64,000 bases of DNA from Embleya scabrispora (GTDB taxonomy: Bacteria; Actinomycetota; Actinomycetes; Streptomycetales; Streptomycetaceae): positions 5,125,501-5,189,500 of the forward strand of contig NZ_MWQN01000001.1 in assembly GCF_002024165.1 (NCBI RefSeq), in the 5' to 3' direction. The position numbers were made by a program, and so were the translations under genes. Positions 2,521-53,836 of the stretch are shown one piece after another (within the stretch, counting starts at the first letter, position 1; every line of letters starts with the position of its first letter). The notes under the pieces are model-generated. The model ran no database searches. It was not told where the DNA came from and was given only the letters and a program-made list of their open reading frames with translations.

Positions 2521-3414
2521 ATGAGTACCGAGAACACGAACGACGAGGTCGAGGGCACCCCGGAGCTGGTGATCATCTCCGGCATGTCCGGCGCCGGTCG
2601 CAGCACCGCCGCCAAGGGCATGGAGGACCTCGGCTGGTTCGTGGTGGACAACCTGCCGCCGTCGCTGATCCCCGCCATGGTCGACCTCGGGGCCCGCACG
2701 CAAGGGGCGGTCGCGCGGATAGCGGTCGTCGTCGACGTGCGCGGACGCACCTTCTTCGACGACCTGCGCTCCGCGCTCGGCGAGCTGGACGCGTCCGGCG
2801 TGCTGCGTCGGATCGTCTTCCTGGAGGCCTCCGACGACGTACTGGTGCGCCGCTTCGAGGGGGTCCGCCGGCCGCACCCGCTCCAGGACGACGGCCGCAT
2901 CCCCGACGGCATCGCCCGCGAGCGCGAACTACTGCGCGAGCTGCGCGGCGAGGCCGACCTGGTGATCGACACCTCCGACCTGAACGTGCACCAGCTGCGG
3001 GCCCGGATGGACGACCGGTTCGCCGGCTCCGGCGAGCCGCAGTTGCGCGCCACGGTGATGTCCTTCGGCTTCAAGTACGGCCTGCCCGTGGACGCCGACC
3101 TGGTGGTCGACTGCCGCTTCCTGCCCAACCCGCACTGGATCCCGGAACTGCGCCCGCACACCGGCATGGACGAGGCGGTCAGCCGGTACGTGTTCGACCA
3201 GCCCGGCGCGAAGGAGTTCCTGGACCGCTACGCCGAACTGCTGCACATCGTCACCGAGGGCTACCGGCGCGAGGGCAAGCGCTACGTCACGCTCGCGGTG
3301 GGGTGCACCGGCGGCAAGCACCGCAGCGTCGCGATGGCCGAGCGCCTCGCCCGCCGGCTCACCGAGGACGGCCTGGACACCGTGCTCGTACACCGCGACA
3401 TGGGCAGGGAATGA
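2521..3414 (+). CDS. rapZ: RNase adapter / P-loop protein RapZ (YvcJ family)
   Basis: P-loop nucleotide-binding protein of the RapZ/YvcJ family. In enteric bacteria it controls an amino-sugar small RNA; in actinobacteria its role is less clear. The Walker A motif [14 protein letters not shown] lies about 20 residues from the start. The C-terminal domain keeps the family motif [17 protein letters not shown] chose ATG 2521, preceded by a GGGGGG purine run, over an in-frame GTG at 2497 directly after the uvrC stop; that would add eight unconserved residues. The product is 297 residues. Its TGA overlaps the yvcK ATG (ATGA at 3411-3414), so the two are translationally coupled. The order rapZ-yvcK-whiA is conserved in Gram-positive bacteria. 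Confidence 0.95.
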
Positions 3415-12201: not shown

Positions 12202-13389
12202 TTGAAGACCATCGACGACATCGACGTATCCGGTAAGCGCGTCCTGGTGCGCGCCGACCTCAACGTCCCGCTCGACGGCGGACGCATCACCGACGACGGC
12301 CGGATCCGGGCGAGCGTGCCGACCATCGAGGCGCTGCGCGGCCGCGGCGCCAAGGTGATCGTGTGCTCTCACCTGGGTCGGCCCAAGGGCGCCCCCGAGC
12401 CCGACTTCTCGCTCGCCCCGGTGGCCGCGCGGCTCGGCGAACTCCTGGGAGCCGACGTGGCGTTCGCGACCGACACGGTCGGCGACAGCGCCCGGGCGAC
12501 GGTCGGCAAGCTCGCCGACGGCGAGGTGGCGCTCCTGGAGAACCTGCGCTTCAACCCGGGCGAGACGGCCAAGGACGACGCCGAGCGCGGGGCGTTCGCG
12601 GACCGGCTCGCCGACCTCGCCGAGGTGTACGTGGGCGACGGTTTCGGCGCGGTGCACCGCAAGCACGCGTCGGTCTACGACGTGCCGGCCCGGCTGCCGC
12701 ACGCGGTCGGCGGCCTGATCGCCACCGAACTGGACGTGCTCAAGCGGCTCACCGACGACGTGCAGCGCCCGTATGCGGTGATCCTGGGCGGTTCGAAGGT
12801 CTCCGACAAGCTCGGTGTGATCGACAGCCTGCTGGAGCGGGCCGACCGCATCCTGGTGGGCGGCGGCATGGTGTTCACCTTCCTGGCCGCGCAGGGCCAC
12901 GAGGTGGGCAAGTCGCTTCTGGAGCGGGACCAGATCGAGCGGGTCCGCGAGTATCTGGCCCGGGCCGAGGCGAAGGGCGTGGAGTTCGTCCTGCCGGTCG
13001 ACGTGATCGCGGCCACCGCGTTCGCCGCCGACGCGGACCACGCGGTGGTCTCCGTCGAGGCGATCCCGGCGGACCGGCTCGGCCTGGACATCGGCCCGGC
13101 GTCCGGCGAGTTGTTCGCCGACAAGCTGGCCGACGCGCAGACGGTCTTCTGGAACGGCCCGATGGGCGTGTTCGAGATGGAGCCGTACAGCCACGGCACC
13201 CGCGCGGTGGCCCAGGGGCTGATCGACTCCGACGCGTTCACCGTGGTCGGCGGCGGCGACTCGGCCGCGGCCGTGCGTACCCTCGGCTTCGACGAGAACG
13301 CCTTCGGCCACATCTCCACCGGTGGCGGCGCGAGTCTGGAATACCTCGAAGGCAAGTCCCTGCCCGGCCTCGAAGCTTTGGAGGGCTGA
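12202..13389 (+). CDS. pgk: Phosphoglycerate kinase
   Basis: Transfers phosphate from 1,3-bisphosphoglycerate to ADP in glycolysis. The N-terminal domain begins [20 protein letters not shown] (start read as Met), the family signature. [13 protein letters not shown] marks the substrate site, and the nucleotide-binding GGGDSAAAV and [16 protein letters not shown] are at the C terminus. The product is 395 residues. I chose TTG 12202 because homologues begin MKTID and because GAGG lies 11 nt upstream; the 34 extra in-frame codons upstream are Pro/Arg-rich and cover the duplicated leader. The tpiA ATG follows 6 nt after the stop, so pgk and tpiA form an operon. Confidence 0.96.
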
Positions 13390-46668: not shown

Positions 46669-46691
46669 CTCCTGGGCCGCTGGGCCCTTTT

Positions 46692-47184
46692 GGCCTCAGT
46701 CGCCGGCCGGGCTGGTTGGGCCGGCCTGCGGCCGAGGCGGGCTCGAACGCCTGGCCTCAAGCGCCTGGCCTCAAGCGCCGGCCGGGCTGGGGTTGCGGGT
46801 TTGTGTTTTTGGCGAGCCTTGAGTGTTGGTCGGCTGGGGTGGCCTCAAACGCCGGCCGGGCTGCTTGGCCTCAAACGCCGGCCGGGCTGGGGTTGCGGGT
46901 TTGTGTTTTTGGCGAGCCTTGAGTGTTGGTCGGCTGGGGTGGCCTCAAACGCCGGCCGGGCTGGGGTTGCGGGCTTTGAGTTTTGGCGGCCTTGAGTGTT
47001 GGTTGGCTGGGGTGGCCTCAAGCGCCGGCCGGGCTGGGGTTGCGGGTTTTGGGTTTTTGGCGGCCTTGAGTGTTGGTCGGCTGGGGTGGCCTCAAGCGCC
47101 GGCCGGGCTGAGTTGCGGGTTTTGGGTTTTTGGCCGGCGTTGCGGGTTGGTTTGCTGGGGTGGGCTCAAACGCCGGTCGGGGTG
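46692..47184 (+). repeat. Tandem array 1, about 74-nt unit, eight core copies
   Basis: Eight copies of a 23-nt core (CTCAAGCGCCGGCCGGG at its centre, with AAG or AAA) start at about 46692, 46767, 46841, 46867, 46941, 47014, 47088 and 47162. Spacing is 73-75 nt, except one 26-nt step that duplicates the core alone. The core is a near palindrome (AGC-x-CCGGCCGG-x-CT). The spacer is G/T-rich (GAGTGTTGGTCGGCTGGGG). The unit length is not a multiple of three and the array encodes nothing. It lies between the convergent sufT and the 957-codon gene. Confidence 0.9.
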
Positions 47185-47587
47185 GGAGTTGTGGGTTCGG
47201 TGGGCGGATCTGTTCGGCTGGGGGCCTCGGTTGTCGGCTTCAGGGATGGTCGGGCTTTGGTTGCGTGATGGGGTTTGCTTGGCGGTGGGGCGGAGCGGGG
47301 CGCTGCTGGGTTTGGCCGCCGCCGGCGTTCGGGGGTCTGAGACTGGGGGTTCCCGACGAGACGGGTGTGTCGAGTGTCGGGTTTGTGTGCTCCAGCCGGC
47401 TCGAGGCCGGAGGGGAGACCGGAACCGCCCGATCCGAGCCGGCTTCGGGCACGGTTCCGCGGAGGCTGTAGGTCCCGGGGGGCCTCAACAGCTGCCCGCC
47501 CGTGCTGTACGCCCACCGCACCCCGAAGCCGCCCGACCCGCTCGGGAAGGCTCCTCGTTGGATTCGGACCGGCCGCCCCGCAACCGG
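47185..47587. other. Non-coding stretch between array 1 and the 957-codon gene
   Basis: About 400 nt with no protein-like frame on either strand, no further repeat cores and no clear hairpin with a T run. It begins G/T-rich like the array and becomes ordinary GC-rich sequence towards 47587. Confidence 0.4.
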
Positions 47588-50461
47588 TTATGGGCGGGGT
47601 TGGGAGACGCCCAGGAGTTCGAGGATGTCTGTGTCGCCTCGTTGTTGCAGGTGGTGTAGGACGGCCTTGAGGTCGATGCCGGGGTCGAGGCCGATTCTGG
47701 CGCCGAGGAGTTCGGGGAGGTTGACCTGTTCGGGGACCGGGTCGACGCCGGTGTGGCGTAGGGCCCTTGCCCAGCGGGGGAGGCGGACCGTGGCGTCGCC
47801 GCGGACCAGGCGGGCCTCCAGGCGGCCCTGGTGGATCGACGAGATGAAGACCATGTCGCCCTCGTGCGCGGACAGGCCGGCCAGGATCGCGCGCAGGGAC
47901 ACCAGGTAGGGCGTGTCGGACCAGCGCAGCGCGGCGGGGCCGTGGCCGTGGTGCAGCCGGACCTGGCCGCCCGGGGTGACGCCGAGGGATTGGGCGAACG
48001 CCGCCGGTACCTTGACCGGCTCGCCTTCGAGCATCGCGGTGGACACGTCCACCCGGAACGCCCATGCGCCGGTGTCCTCGCGGAAGCAGCCCGCGGTCCG
48101 GGACGGATCGCCGATCGGCGCCGGCCGCCCCTTCTGCGCCGGGCGCTCCAGGGTGTCCGCCGAGCGGGACAACACCTGGCCGTTCTCCACCTGGAAGCCC
48201 TCCAGGCGGGCGATCCAGGCGGCCTGAAGCGGCGGGCGGATGCCCATCGCGGTCAGGTCCCGCTCCAGCGCCGCCAGCGGCACCGGGCCGCGGGCGCAGG
48301 CGGCGTCCAGGGTGGCCTGGGTGCGGTCGGACAACTCGCCCAGCGGCGCGCTCGACAACCAGCCGTCGACCGAGGTGTGCAGGCCGAGCAGGCCGCGCAG
48401 CACCTGCCAGACCTGGATCTCCAGACCCGGCACGGTCTCGGTGTGCTTGGGATGCAGCGTGCGCAGTTCGGAGACCGTGGTCAGGACGCCCAGCCGGTCC
48501 CGGACGAAGCTCAGGTGCACCCGGACCGGCGCGCCGTCGGAGCGGCCGATGCGCTCGTCCAGGTTGCGTCGCAGGTCCCGCTCCAGGATCTTGACCTCGG
48601 CCGGTGAGGTGCCGAACTCGGCGGCCAGCGAATCCAGTTCGCGGGGTTCGTCGGTGAACAGCCGGTCCCGGGCGAGTACCCGGCGGCGCGGCTCGCTCGC
48701 CGGAAACCAGGTCGCCAGGACGATGACGAGATCGCCGCCGCCGGGCTCGCCGGCGCGCGACTGCGGCCGGTCGACGAGCATCGTGACATCGTCGGGGGGC
48801 GCGGCCGGCAGCGTGCCGGGCACCATCTCGACGGTGGCCTCGGGGTCGGCCGCCTTCGCCTTCGTGCCCCGGTTGGTGTGCGGCACGGCGGACGGGTCCG
48901 GCGGCGCGGGTACGGACGGCACCTCCGCCGCGGACGCGCCGGCCGGCGCGGGGGTCGGCCCGGAACGCGGCGGGTGGCTCGGTCGGGGCGGGATGCGCAG
49001 GCCCTCGGGGGTGCGCGGTACGGCGGCCTCACCCATCGCCGCGACCGCGCCGGCGGTGGGCGGCGGGACCTCGCCGAATGCGTCCCGGCCGCCCTCCTCG
49101 TTCGTGTCCGCCGCCTCGGTGCTCTTGGCGGGCGGCTCGGATCGGGTCGGCGGGGCGGTGCGCTTGCCCTTGCGGGTGAGTGCGGGGATCGGGACGTCGG
49201 CGACGGTCATCGGCGGCGTCTCGCCGAACGCGTCCACGCCGGGCGCCTCGTCGATCGTGGGCTCCTCCGCCGGCGGGGCCGGGTGCGGCCGGCGGTCCTC
49301 GGAGGTGTCCGTGGTGCGGATCCGCGGCACCGGCTTGGCGGCGGGCTCGGCCGCGGGCGCGTCGATGTGGTGGGCGGCGATCTCGGGCAGCGGTTCCGTG
49401 CGGGCCTCGGCGGACGACGCGCGCTCGGGGCCGGGCGCCGTGACCGTGGGCAGGCTCGCGCGGGTGGTCGGCGGCACCTCCCCGTAGGCGTCCCGGCCCG
49501 ACTCGGACGCGTCGTCGTCGGAGTCGGCGACCTCGGAATCGTCATCGGGTGCCTCGGCGGCGGCCGGCTCCGGTTCGGTCGCGACGGGTGCCGGCGGCAG
49601 CGCCAGCGACGCGCGCAGCCCGGACGGCACCTGGGTGAGCAGCGCGGTCAACGCGGTCCGCACCTCGTCCGTGGCGTCCTCCAGGCCGACCACGGCCGCG
49701 GTCTCCAGGGTGACCTGTGCGAGCTGCGCCATCAGGGGTACGTCCGGCGCCTGTTCGGCCAGCCAGCGCACCACGGTGCCCAGTTCGGCGGTCAACGGCT
49801 CGGGCAGCTTGACCGGACGCAGTTCCTCGTCGTCCAGGTCGCCCCACTCGTCCGGGTTGTCCCAGTCGCCGTCCTCCGGGGCGGGCGGGATCACGGTCGC
49901 CGCGGCGGACGCCGGCTCCGTCTCGGGGGCCGTCTCCGGCTCGGCGGCCGGTTCGGGCATCGCCGCCGCGTTCGCCGCCGTGCCGGACGCGTCGAACAGG
50001 GCGTCCACGTCCACCGATTCGTCGTCCTGCGGCAGCAGTCCCAGGACTTCCTCGAACAGCCGGGCCACCAGCGGCCGCACGGTCGAGGTGCCGATCTGGG
50101 TCCAGTCGCCGACCTCGCGCACCGTCGTGGTGAGCAGGTCCGCCCAGTCGGGTGTACGCACCATCACGTTGGTCCGCGCGCCGTCGGGCCACTGGGAGAG
50201 CCGGAAGCCGTTGCGCGCCAGCCAGGCCCCGGGCAGCAGATCGCCCAGGCGCAGGTGTCGCAGCTCGGTGTAGGCGAGATCGGCGAGCCGTCCAGGCAGT
50301 TCGTCCCGGCCGAAGGTGTCGGCGGCGCGCACCACCGGCACGCTCATCCACCACGCCGCGGGCAGGTCCTCGTGCTCGAGGTAGTCGGCGACGAGTTCGG
50401 GCGCGACGAAGCGCAGGGCGGGCACGAAATCGGCCAGAGTGGCCTGGAGCCGGGGCTGCAT
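47588..50461 (-). CDS. Large unknown protein with sigma-region-4-like helix-turn-helix
   Basis: A 957-residue cytoplasmic protein with no recognised full-length family. Residues 1-150 form a folded, Trp-containing N-terminal domain (AAWWMSVPVVRAADTF, LGDLLPGAWLARNGF). Residues about 165-580 are mostly acidic, Pro/Ala-rich and disordered, with three copies of D-A-F/Y-G-E-V/T-P-P near residues 323, 409 and 460. At about 595-640, DRLFTDEPRELDSLAAEFG followed by TSPAEVKILERDL closely follows a sigma-70 region 4 helix-turn-helix. The C-terminal 250 residues are alpha/beta (GDMVFISSIHQGRLEARLV). The start is ATG 50461 with GGAGG 7 nt upstream. It is divergent from an RsbW-like gene. A DNA-binding or RNA polymerase-related role is inferred. 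Confidence 0.75.
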   Translation of the reverse strand: MQPRLQATLADFVPALRFVAPELVADYLEHEDLPAAWWMSVPVVRAADTFGRDELPGRLADLAYTELRHLRLGDLLPGAWLARNGFRLSQWPDGARTNVMVRTPDWADLLTTTVREVGDWTQIGTSTVRPLVARLFEEVLGLLPQDDESVDVDALFDASGTAANAAAMPEPAAEPETAPETEPASAAATVIPPAPEDGDWDNPDEWGDLDDEELRPVKLPEPLTAELGTVVRWLAEQAPDVPLMAQLAQVTLETAAVVGLEDATDEVRTALTALLTQVPSGLRASLALPPAPVATEPEPAAAEAPDDDSEVADSDDDASESGRDAYGEVPPTTRASLPTVTAPGPERASSAEARTEPLPEIAAHHIDAPAAEPAAKPVPRIRTTDTSEDRRPHPAPPAEEPTIDEAPGVDAFGETPPMTVADVPIPALTRKGKRTAPPTRSEPPAKSTEAADTNEEGGRDAFGEVPPPTAGAVAAMGEAAVPRTPEGLRIPPRPSHPPRSGPTPAPAGASAAEVPSVPAPPDPSAVPHTNRGTKAKAADPEATVEMVPGTLPAAPPDDVTMLVDRPQSRAGEPGGGDLVIVLATWFPASEPRRRVLARDRLFTDEPRELDSLAAEFGTSPAEVKILERDLRRNLDERIGRSDGAPVRVHLSFVRDRLGVLTTVSELRTLHPKHTETVPGLEIQVWQVLRGLLGLHTSVDGWLSSAPLGELSDRTQATLDAACARGPVPLAALERDLTAMGIRPPLQAAWIARLEGFQVENGQVLSRSADTLERPAQKGRPAPIGDPSRTAGCFREDTGAWAFRVDVSTAMLEGEPVKVPAAFAQSLGVTPGGQVRLHHGHGPAALRWSDTPYLVSLRAILAGLSAHEGDMVFISSIHQGRLEARLVRGDATVRLPRWARALRHTGVDPVPEQVNLPELLGARIGLDPGIDLKAVLHHLQQRGDTDILELLGVSQPRP

Positions 50462-51438: not shown

Positions 51439-51606
51439 GGCGGCTTCGGGTCGGGCGGTTGGGTTGTTCGGGCGAAGGTGGGCGAGGGCGTACCCGGGTG
51501 TGGGTGGGTCGAACCAATAACCGCAAAAAATGGCGCAATTCGCGTCCGCCATGCACCCTGGCAGGAACGATTTCGATCGCCTGTACACGTGTGCAAGGAG
51601 GATCCG

Positions 51607-52134
51607 TTGCGCGAACAGACCATCGGGGAACACCTCGACCGACTGGCCAGTCCCGACGTCCGGGTGCGGGGGGCGGCCGCCGCGCTCCAGGCCGCGCAGG
51701 CCGCCGCGCTCGTCGAGCGGGCCGCCGCACTCGCCCTGCACACCACCGACGCCGAGGAGACGATGCGGGCGGCGCGGGCCGAGGCGGGGCGGATGCGGGA
51801 GCGGGCAATGCGGGCGGGCCATGCGGCGCGGGAGGCTTCGGAGCGGTCCGGCTCGGGGGTGGATTCCGCCGAAGTGCCTTTGCGTATCGCGGCGTTGGCG
51901 GCGGATCTGATCGGGCTCGCGGGTACGGTGCGGGATGGTGCGGATGACGATGTGCTTCCGTATCTGGTTGCGGCTGCGGCCAGTGCGCGGGCTGCGCTCG
52001 AGGCTTCCGCCGCTTGGGTTTCGTTGCTTGTCGCCGATGGCGGGGGGCGGGATGTGCGGGTTCGGATGACGCGGCATCTTTCGGCTGTCGCCGATGCGGA
52101 GGAGATTGTGGATCGGGCTCGGGCTGCGGCCTGA
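51607..52134 (+). CDS. Ala-rich helical protein, unknown function
   Basis: A 175-residue protein, strongly alpha-helical and rich in Ala, Glu and Arg (RVRGAAAALQAAQAAALVE, EETMRAARAEAGRMRERAM). No signal peptide or catalytic motif. The start is TTG 51607, 5 nt after a full AAGGAGG; the frame is open to 51478, but that part is not protein-like. Periodic Ala and charged residues suggest helical bundles or coiled coil. It ends 2 nt before tandem array 2. I do not recognise a family. Confidence 0.68.
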   Translation: MREQTIGEHLDRLASPDVRVRGAAAALQAAQAAALVERAAALALHTTDAEETMRAARAEAGRMRERAMRAGHAAREASERSGSGVDSAEVPLRIAALAADLIGLAGTVRDGADDDVLPYLVAAAASARAALEASAAWVSLLVADGGGRDVRVRMTRHLSAVADAEEIVDRARAAA

Positions 52135-52136
52135 GT

Positions 52137-52690
52137 TGGCCTCAAGCGCGGGGCCTCAAGCGCCGGCTGGGCTGGGGTGTGTTCGGCCGGCGGTGGGCTT
52201 TCGGTGGGTTGGGGTGGCCTCAAGCGCCGGCCGGGCTGAGAGGGGTGTGTTCGGCCGGCGGTGGGCTTTCGGTGGGTTGGGGTGGCCTCAAGCGCCGGCC
52301 GGGCTGAGAGGGGTGTGTTCGGTCGGCGGTGGGTTTTGGGTGGGTTGGGGTGGCCTCAAGCGCCGGCCGGGCTGAGAGGGGTGTGTTCGGTCGGCGTTGG
52401 GTTTTGGGTGGGTTGGGGTGGCCTCAAGCGCCGGCCGGGCTGAGAGGGGTGTGTTCGGTCGGCGGTGGGTTTTGGGTGGGTTGGGGTGGCCTCAAGCGCC
52501 GGCCGGGCTGAGAGGGGTGTGTTCGGCTGGCGTTGGGTTTTGGGTGGGTTGGGGTGGTCTCGGGCGCCGGCCGGGCTGAGGAGGGGTGTGGTTGGGCGGC
52601 GTTGGGTTTTGGGTGGGTTGGGGTGGTTTCGAGTGTCGGTCGGGCTGAGGGGGGGTGTGGTTGGGCGGTGGTGGGGCTTGGGGGTGGGGT
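52137..52690 (+). repeat. Tandem array 2, exact 68-nt unit with phased G-quadruplex motifs
   Basis: Core copies (CTCAAGCGCCGGCCGGG at the centre) start at 52216, 52284, 52352, 52420 and 52488, exactly 68 nt apart, with diverged copies at 52556 and 52625 and partial ones near 52137-52153. Five units hold a GGG-TTTT-GGG-T-GGG-TT-GGGG pattern at 52331, 52399, 52467, 52535 and 52604. The spacing is not a multiple of three. The array sits between the convergent 175-codon gene and the metallopeptidase gene, 4 nt from the latter's stop. Confidence 0.92.
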
Positions 52691-52693
52691 TTG

Positions 52694-53587
52694 TCAGATG
52701 TGGGCTGTGAAGGTGTCGCATTTGGTGGGGTCGCCTGTGGTGTAGCCCCTTTGGAACCACTGTTGGCGTTGGGCGGCTGAGCCGTGGGTCCAGGTTTCCG
52801 GGGTTACTCGGCCCTGGAATTCCTGCTGGATGCGGTCGTCGCCCACCGCTGCCGCGGCGTCGAGGCCGTCGGCGATGTCCTGGGGGGTGAGGTTGGTGAT
52901 CAGGGCTCCCGGGGGCGTGGTCGCGTGTTGGGCCCAGACGCCGGCGTAGCAGTCGGCCTGGAGTTCGAGGCGGACCGAGCCGCTCTGCGGGCCCTGGCGG
53001 TCGTTGCCGACCCTGGCCATCTGGCCGGTGAGGTCCTGGATGTGGTGGCCGTACTCGTGGGCCAGTACGTACGCCTCGGCGAACGGCCCGCCCTTGGCGC
53101 CGAACTTGGTGCGTAGCTCGCCGAAGAAGCCCAGATCGATGTAGACCCTGCGGTCGCCGGGACAGTAGAAGGGGCCCACCGCCGAGGTCGCCCCGCCGCA
53201 CGCGGTCGAGGTGCTGCCGGTGAAGAACCGGGTCGGCGCCGGCTTGTACGTCGCGCCCCGGCGCCGGTACTCGTCCGTCCAGTACGCCTGCACGCTGTTC
53301 ACCACGCCGACGATCCGGCAGTCGTCGCGCGCGTTGGCGTCGGTGCCCTTGCGGCACGAGTCCTGGAGCGCGCGATTGTCCGCCGGGACGGCGCCGCCCC
53401 CGCCCCCGCCGTCGCTCAGGCCGAGCTGGTTCGGGCTCAGGCCGAAGATCAGGCCGAGGACCACGGCGATCAGGCCCGCCGCGCCGCCGCCCACCGCGAG
53501 GCCGGGACGACGCAGCCCGCCGCCCCCCGAGCCGCGTTCGTCCTCGATCTGGGACGTGTCCAGATCCGCATCGTCGTCGAACTGCAT
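52694..53587 (-). CDS. Neutral zinc metallopeptidase (YpfJ/KPN_02809 family)
   Basis: A 297-residue membrane-anchored metallopeptidase. A short acidic cytoplasmic tail ([19 protein letters not shown]) and a Gly-rich stretch lead to one transmembrane helix ([16 protein letters not shown], residues about 30-48). The extracytoplasmic domain carries the zinc site [10 protein letters not shown] (HExxH) and the downstream [12 protein letters not shown] that supplies the third ligand. Four or more Cys are present. The start is ATG 53587; the frame runs on to 53725 without protein character. Physiological substrate unknown. Confidence 0.9.
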
Positions 53588-53836
53588 CTCGCGACCGCCA
53601 AGGCAACAGGGAATAGACGTCGGGTGACGGATATCCCTTTTCGCGGGTTTTACCGCGCCCGTCGCCTTGGTGCCGGGAGGACGCCCGGAAATTCGTTCCG
53701 ACGGCTCCCGTAGACTCGTGGGCATGGTCGGTTTCCCTGGATATCCCCGCGAGCGGCCTTAGCGCGGTGCGGCTTCCCAGCGAGCCCCGCACGATCGTCC
53801 GTCTTCGTCAGTCCCCGACCGGGAGCCCAGTCCTTC

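Follow-up and report, generated by a model that had tools for sequence, protein, structure and literature searches.

The tandem array at 52152-52682 of the window (64,000 nt of Embleya scabrispora, C1:5125501-5189500) is real, but it is not a quadruplex device: it belongs to a family of REP-like hairpin repeats that lie in fork-oriented arrays. We see about an even chance that it is a locally amplified array of a REP-like 23-nt hairpin without a RAYT gene, amplified in place as the DNA replicates, chiefly where the core sits on the lagging-strand template. In a broader reading, which we hold more tentatively and place somewhat below even, arrays of hairpin repeats arise or survive chiefly where the lagging template carries the core. 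They would then make up a chromosome-wide record of replication direction and a local zone of strand-asymmetric mutation, perhaps kept because they separate replication from head-on transcription where genes converge.

Layout of the array

Tandem Repeats Finder placed the array at 52152-52682 (period 68, 7.8 copies, 93% matches), 17 nt past the stop of the plus-strand gene at 51478-52134. A control of 400 kb of Markov-shuffled sequence contained 0 cores, and the array is thus far above chance. As the initial annotation had described, it separates two convergent genes, one ending at 52134 (+) and a Zn_peptidase gene at 52694-53725 (-). The features are as follows.

51478-52134, plus strand: leading-strand neighbour gene; weak match to PF04961, start possibly further downstream
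52152-52682, plus strand: tandem array, 68-nt period, about 7.8 units; the core strand is the plus strand and the leading strand
52152-52174, plus strand: core copy 1, GGCCTCAAGCGCCGGCTGGGCTG, one mismatch
52216-52238, plus strand: core copy 2, GGCCTCAAGCGCCGGCCGGGCTG
Starts at 52284, 52352, 52420 and 52488, plus strand: exact core copies after copy 2
52331-52350, plus strand: G-quadruplex-like motif 1, in the variable G+T-rich spacer
52399-52418, 52467-52486, 52535-52554 and 52604-52623, plus strand: other G-quadruplex-like motifs, in the variable G+T-rich spacer
52556-52578, plus strand: decayed core copy, GGTCTCGGGCGCCGGCCGGGCTG
52694-53725, minus strand: neighbour gene on the lagging strand, encoding a putative neutral zinc metallopeptidase (PF04228, Zn_peptidase)
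46691-47197, plus strand: another array of this core within the window, with a period of about 74 nt (one step of 26 nt) and oriented like 52152-52682

The five phased 20-mers reported earlier were confirmed: GGGTTTTGGGTGGGTTGGGG occurs exactly at 52331, 52399, 52467, 52535 and 52604 (steps of 68, 68, 68 and 69 nt), and the minus strand of 52137-52690 has no G-quadruplex motif. Units 1 and 2 carry GGGCTTTCGGTGGGTTGGGG in place of the quadruplex 20-mer and are missing the four-run motif. The spacer of the 68-nt unit also holds a decayed inverted core, giving a longer hairpin that is stabler on the plus strand; this longer hairpin is not general across arrays. Since 68 is not divisible by three, coding of a repeat protein by the array was ruled out. 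Rfam covariance models gave no credible match in the window between 46000 and 54000.

In the second array the spacers contain decayed direct core copies (GCCTTGAGTGTTGGTCGG) whose differences from the core are solely C-to-T and A-to-G. A 957-aa ORF on the minus strand (47588-50461) had no Pfam match.

A covarying hairpin core

The conserved element is a 23-nt core, GKCC-TCAANCGCC-GGMC-GGGCTG, in which positions 1-4 pair with 14-17 as a four-pair stem with compensatory changes. Among 60 distinct cores, pairing held in 92% of cells, compared to 20-46% when the pairing was slid. The covariation score was 0.433 vs 0.149 ± 0.023 in shuffles, and mutual information reached 0.64 bit at positions 2/16 (0.12 for the next pair). 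The stem types observed were GGCC/GGCC, GTCC/GGAC, GCCC/GGGC, CGCC/GGCG and GCGC/GCGC, while the loop TCAANCGCC and the tail GGGCTG were almost invariant. The earlier term "palindromic core" holds insofar as the element is an inverted repeat with a hairpin backed by covariation, but the palindrome is imperfect, with a 4-bp stem and a 9-nt loop.

Because differing sequences keep pairing, a folded single strand is favoured over a fixed double-stranded protein site and, judging from the sequences, the core probably acts in that form, whether as RNA or as DNA. Whole units folded no better overall than shuffles (median z -0.2), and a conserved RNA fold of the whole unit was rejected on this near-zero median. 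As a rule the cores are not followed by a U-tract (3% had 5 or more T of 8), no terminator-like site was seen, and they do not qualify as intrinsic terminators (stem-loop plus U-tract).

Distribution of the repeat family

In Embleya, the linear chromosome is described as measuring 7.1 Mb and a second replicon 4.2 Mb (PMC13152386). The genome analysed here totals 10.96 Mb, with dnaA at 3.333 Mb of the 7,005,287-base contig C1; a second, weaker DnaA-domain match (50 bits) lies near the start of contig C3 (8347-8652). The exact 20-mer CCTCAADCGCCGGMCGGGCT occurs 258 times in the genome and its reversed control 0 times. Three congeners contained 36-171 cores. Across the family the distribution was patchy, with the core in 35 of 121 genomes and 4 of 16 genera. 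Among plasmid records, array matches were limited to two large Embleya replicons. On the replicon NZ_CP108777.1 (Embleya sp. NBC_00896, 3.1 Mb), the stretch from 0.85 to 2.03 Mb held 60 exact cores, 43 plus and 17 minus.

Clusters were tabulated from about 1.6 Mb read in pieces together with pattern listings, with uneven coverage of the genome. Both strands were searched by BLAST, and with the pattern listings this made the sampling blind to strand; genes were called by codon usage. None of the 63 core clusters tabulated on C1 lay inside a called gene. Of the 63, 39 sat in convergent gaps, whereas among 879 background gaps 161 were convergent (odds ratio 7.2, p = 4e-13); a divergent gap held one cluster. 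Leading-oriented arrays in convergent gaps began a median of 42 nt past the leading gene's stop and lay 100 nt from the other gene.

The period is specific to each locus, ranging from 26 to 124 nt among arrays of the same core. Because of this, and with distinct periods showing no 10.5-bp phase (resultant 0.07), the suggestion of selection for helical phasing did not survive. Direct tandem arrays predominate in this genome, and head-to-head core pairs are found in other genera and in a few arrays here. In another genus (G100) copies of the core face each other head to head at a distance of 26-28 nt, forming long near-perfect hairpins that resemble BIMEs or REPINs.

Orientation relative to replication

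The strand bias of the cores switches at dnaA, and clusters nearly all point away from the origin. In the DNA read, exact copies left of dnaA were 87 minus and 15 plus, and those to the right were 123 plus and 10 minus. Clusters with at least three copies on C1 were leading in 46 cases, opposite in 5 and mixed in 2 (p = 2e-9). Neighbouring genes do not explain this polarity, because convergent gaps alone gave 33 leading vs 5 opposite (p = 4e-6) and 6 of the 9 clusters between two lagging-strand genes were leading-oriented. All six are multi-copy and antisense to both neighbours, and those with well-supported gene neighbours include C1:465812, 613878, 3826418, 4521083 and 6541361. A further 12 arrays lie between two leading-strand genes. 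Single copies (2 and 2) were too few to claim that polarity is limited to arrays.

The polarity is partly inherited, since many arrays are orthologous between sister species. Four of the opposite clusters form two neighbouring pairs (4064610 / 4072885 and 5228186 / 5237516), which would fit inverted segments. In G112, G119 and G032, from other genera with sparse copies, no replichore polarity was seen by eye, and polarity as a property of the whole family was rejected.

These counts bear on an RNA-based explanation, in which the core gives the co-oriented upstream gene a 3'-end hairpin (terminator, RNase barrier or 3' UTR stabiliser), with arrays serving to reinforce convergent gene ends. Such an element would account for the excess in convergent gaps with one divergent case, the shorter distance to the leading gene's stop, the covarying stem and the long perfect hairpins formed at gene ends by head-to-head pairs in other genera. 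Convergent gaps are symmetric in gene arrangement, yet 33 of 38 clusters follow the leading strand there; the six arrays antisense to both flanking genes and the missing U-tract also count against it, and we consider this explanation rather unlikely.

Strand-asymmetric composition and decay

On the core strand, array DNA is very strongly enriched in G+T: spacers reach a GC skew of 0.7 and a TA skew of 1.0, and the skew fades over about 500 nt into both neighbours. The median leading-strand skew of arrays was 0.28 for GC and 0.56 for TA. A general leading-strand skew was rejected as the source, since ordinary gaps had a GC skew of 0.02-0.06 compared to 0.20 in arrays. Decay of the cores was likewise asymmetric: C or A had mutated 169 times, chiefly to T or G, and G or T 55 times (p = 1e-14). 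Adjacent units differed by 2.3% in cores vs 19% in spacers, a comparison that is biased because the cores were found by similarity.

Opposite-oriented arrays had a weaker G+T skew that was still on their own core strand. The skew therefore tracks the core rather than the replichore, and replichore alone was rejected as its determinant. Inversion after formation could be the reason for this own-strand skew.

Because the core strand is G+T-rich, the antisense RNA of an array is C+A-rich, and it might load Rho, halting read-through out of the lagging-strand gene and so limiting head-on fork collisions. This would be consistent with the leading-strand polarity and with the six arrays between lagging-strand genes, but it leaves unexplained both the conserved hairpin core and the 12 arrays that have a leading-strand gene on either side. 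In S. lividans, moreover, Rho inhibition reportedly leaves colony growth unaffected (PMC3765725), and we regard Rho loading as improbable.

Turnover between relatives

The sister species (G001) has five 64-nt units at the site of the 52152-52682 array, with flanks 93-97% identical, which supports the earlier suggestion of recent local expansion. Congener G003 has no array there. Orthologous arrays of this genome and G001 hold their place and orientation between flanks that are about 90-98% identical, and their copy number and period change (68 / 64 nt at the 52152-52682 locus; 99 / 73, 76 / 61 and 89 / 46 nt elsewhere). Noncoding divergence was 0.2-0.23 within 50-100 nt of arrays and about 0.06 at a distance; at third codon positions on the downstream side, divergence went up to 0.14 from 0.06. 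The rise is only partly array-specific, because array-free convergent gene ends also showed some increase (0.10 in the last 100 nt). In G003 the upstream gene retains normal C-ending codons. In congener G002 (C118, about 34.9-35.5 kb) three cores with 27-nt spacing lie where the metallopeptidase frame is cut short; its PF04228 gene has in-frame stops and is matched only as far as residue 229. A deletion that involved the array is possible.

A proposed lagging-template mechanism

From the orientation, structure and turnover observed, we infer the following mechanism. The core strand of leading-oriented copies is the lagging-strand template and would become single-stranded as the fork passes. 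Hairpins would fold on the exposed strand and lagging synthesis would slip or switch template, so that the array gains, loses and re-homogenises units. On that strand C and A would change to T and G through deamination of cytosine and adenine or through error-prone gap filling; spacers would thus drift to G+T-rich sequence, at times spelling a quadruplex motif. The core would stay constant either through selection for the hairpin or because re-copying takes the hairpin as its unit.

Orientation, expansion, re-homogenisation and strand-asymmetric change would all be accounted for jointly by hairpins on the lagging template. The weak point of this mechanism is that the few opposite arrays retain the skew of their own core strand. 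RNA-based explanations do better than the lagging-template mechanism on the preference for convergent gaps and worse on polarity. Where genes converge, the arrays might also help to end transcription or to limit head-on transcription.

Relation to known repeat systems

Like REP, BIME and REPIN elements (PMC3116915, PMC6006769), the Embleya core is a short, hairpin-forming imperfect palindrome found outside genes, in high copy number, at gene 3' ends and with a covarying stem, and head-to-head pairs of it occur in related genera. Unlike them, it is found in a genus without a RAYT gene (the PF01797 profile of the Y1 HUH transposase had no match in G000-G003), direct tandem arrays predominate and orientation follows the replichore. 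The core works like a REP element, but by the RAYT criterion it falls outside the REP family. The loop and foot sequences of REPs differ from those of the Embleya core.

A mobile system (RAYT or IS200/IS605-like) that inserts with a strand bias could have put copies on the lagging template, and the hairpin, the patchy spread and the polarity would all suit it. We find it quite improbable, as Y1_Tnp (PF01797) is missing from the four genus genomes and also from the core-bearing genomes G112, G107 and G032; RAYT mobilisation was rejected on this ground. The phage records and viral contigs searched held no core copy, and a phage origin of the repeat was rejected as well.

AIMS and the polar oligomers KOPS and Chi (PMC5993296) share with the core a strand bias that switches at the origin and follows the leading strand outward, but they are octamers or so scattered across coding and noncoding DNA alike, whereas the core is a folded 23-mer in tandem arrays outside genes (0 of 63 clusters in genes). 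Orientation-dependent unstable hairpin or quadruplex repeats (PMC4661408, PMC3310812) resemble the arrays in having a hairpin or G-rich strand, a varying copy number and a dependence on replication direction; the Embleya units differ in being long, in having a conserved core and in being dispersed over dozens of loci on a bacterial chromosome. The cutoRNA convergent gene ends of Streptomyces (PMC3765725) are similar in their convergent arrangement and poorly defined termination, but repeats are unmentioned there ("repeat" occurs 0 times in the text).

Searches of the literature by sequence and keyword found no description of the core repeat, and "palindrom" and "intergenic" are absent from the text of the Embleya genome paper (PMC13152386). 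REP-like repeats have long been known, but we found none described as forming arrays that follow the direction of replication, lack RAYT and lie in zones of strand-asymmetric accelerated change. If the lagging-template mechanism is true, Embleya would offer dozens of matched natural loci for studying how lagging-template hairpins drive repeat expansion and mutation in bacteria. The loci would also bear on how the ends of convergent genes are organised in high-GC actinobacteria, whose terminators are ill defined.

The quadruplex motif

The initial proposal that function lies in the phased G-quadruplexes, for which five exact copies on one strand speak, is barely credible: the motif is present in only 14 of 39 arrays here and 5 of 30 in the sister species, matches over all arrays are fewer than expected from base composition (20 vs 29.6), and the orthologous sister-species array has one match without a phased series, most of its units missing the motif. 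It is not kept across copies and orthologues. Since the spacers are G+T-rich in composition, the motif is, as read from base composition, a local by-product and not a conserved feature. In the 52152-52682 array itself there were 6 matches, a number not far above chance given the 3.7 ± 1.6 expected from its own composition.

Short zones of more than 72% G+T on one strand, with no recognisable core, also occur in this genome (for example at local positions 2800-3089 and 12593-13157 of two stretches). Some of these may be fully decayed arrays, and some others are low-complexity coding DNA.
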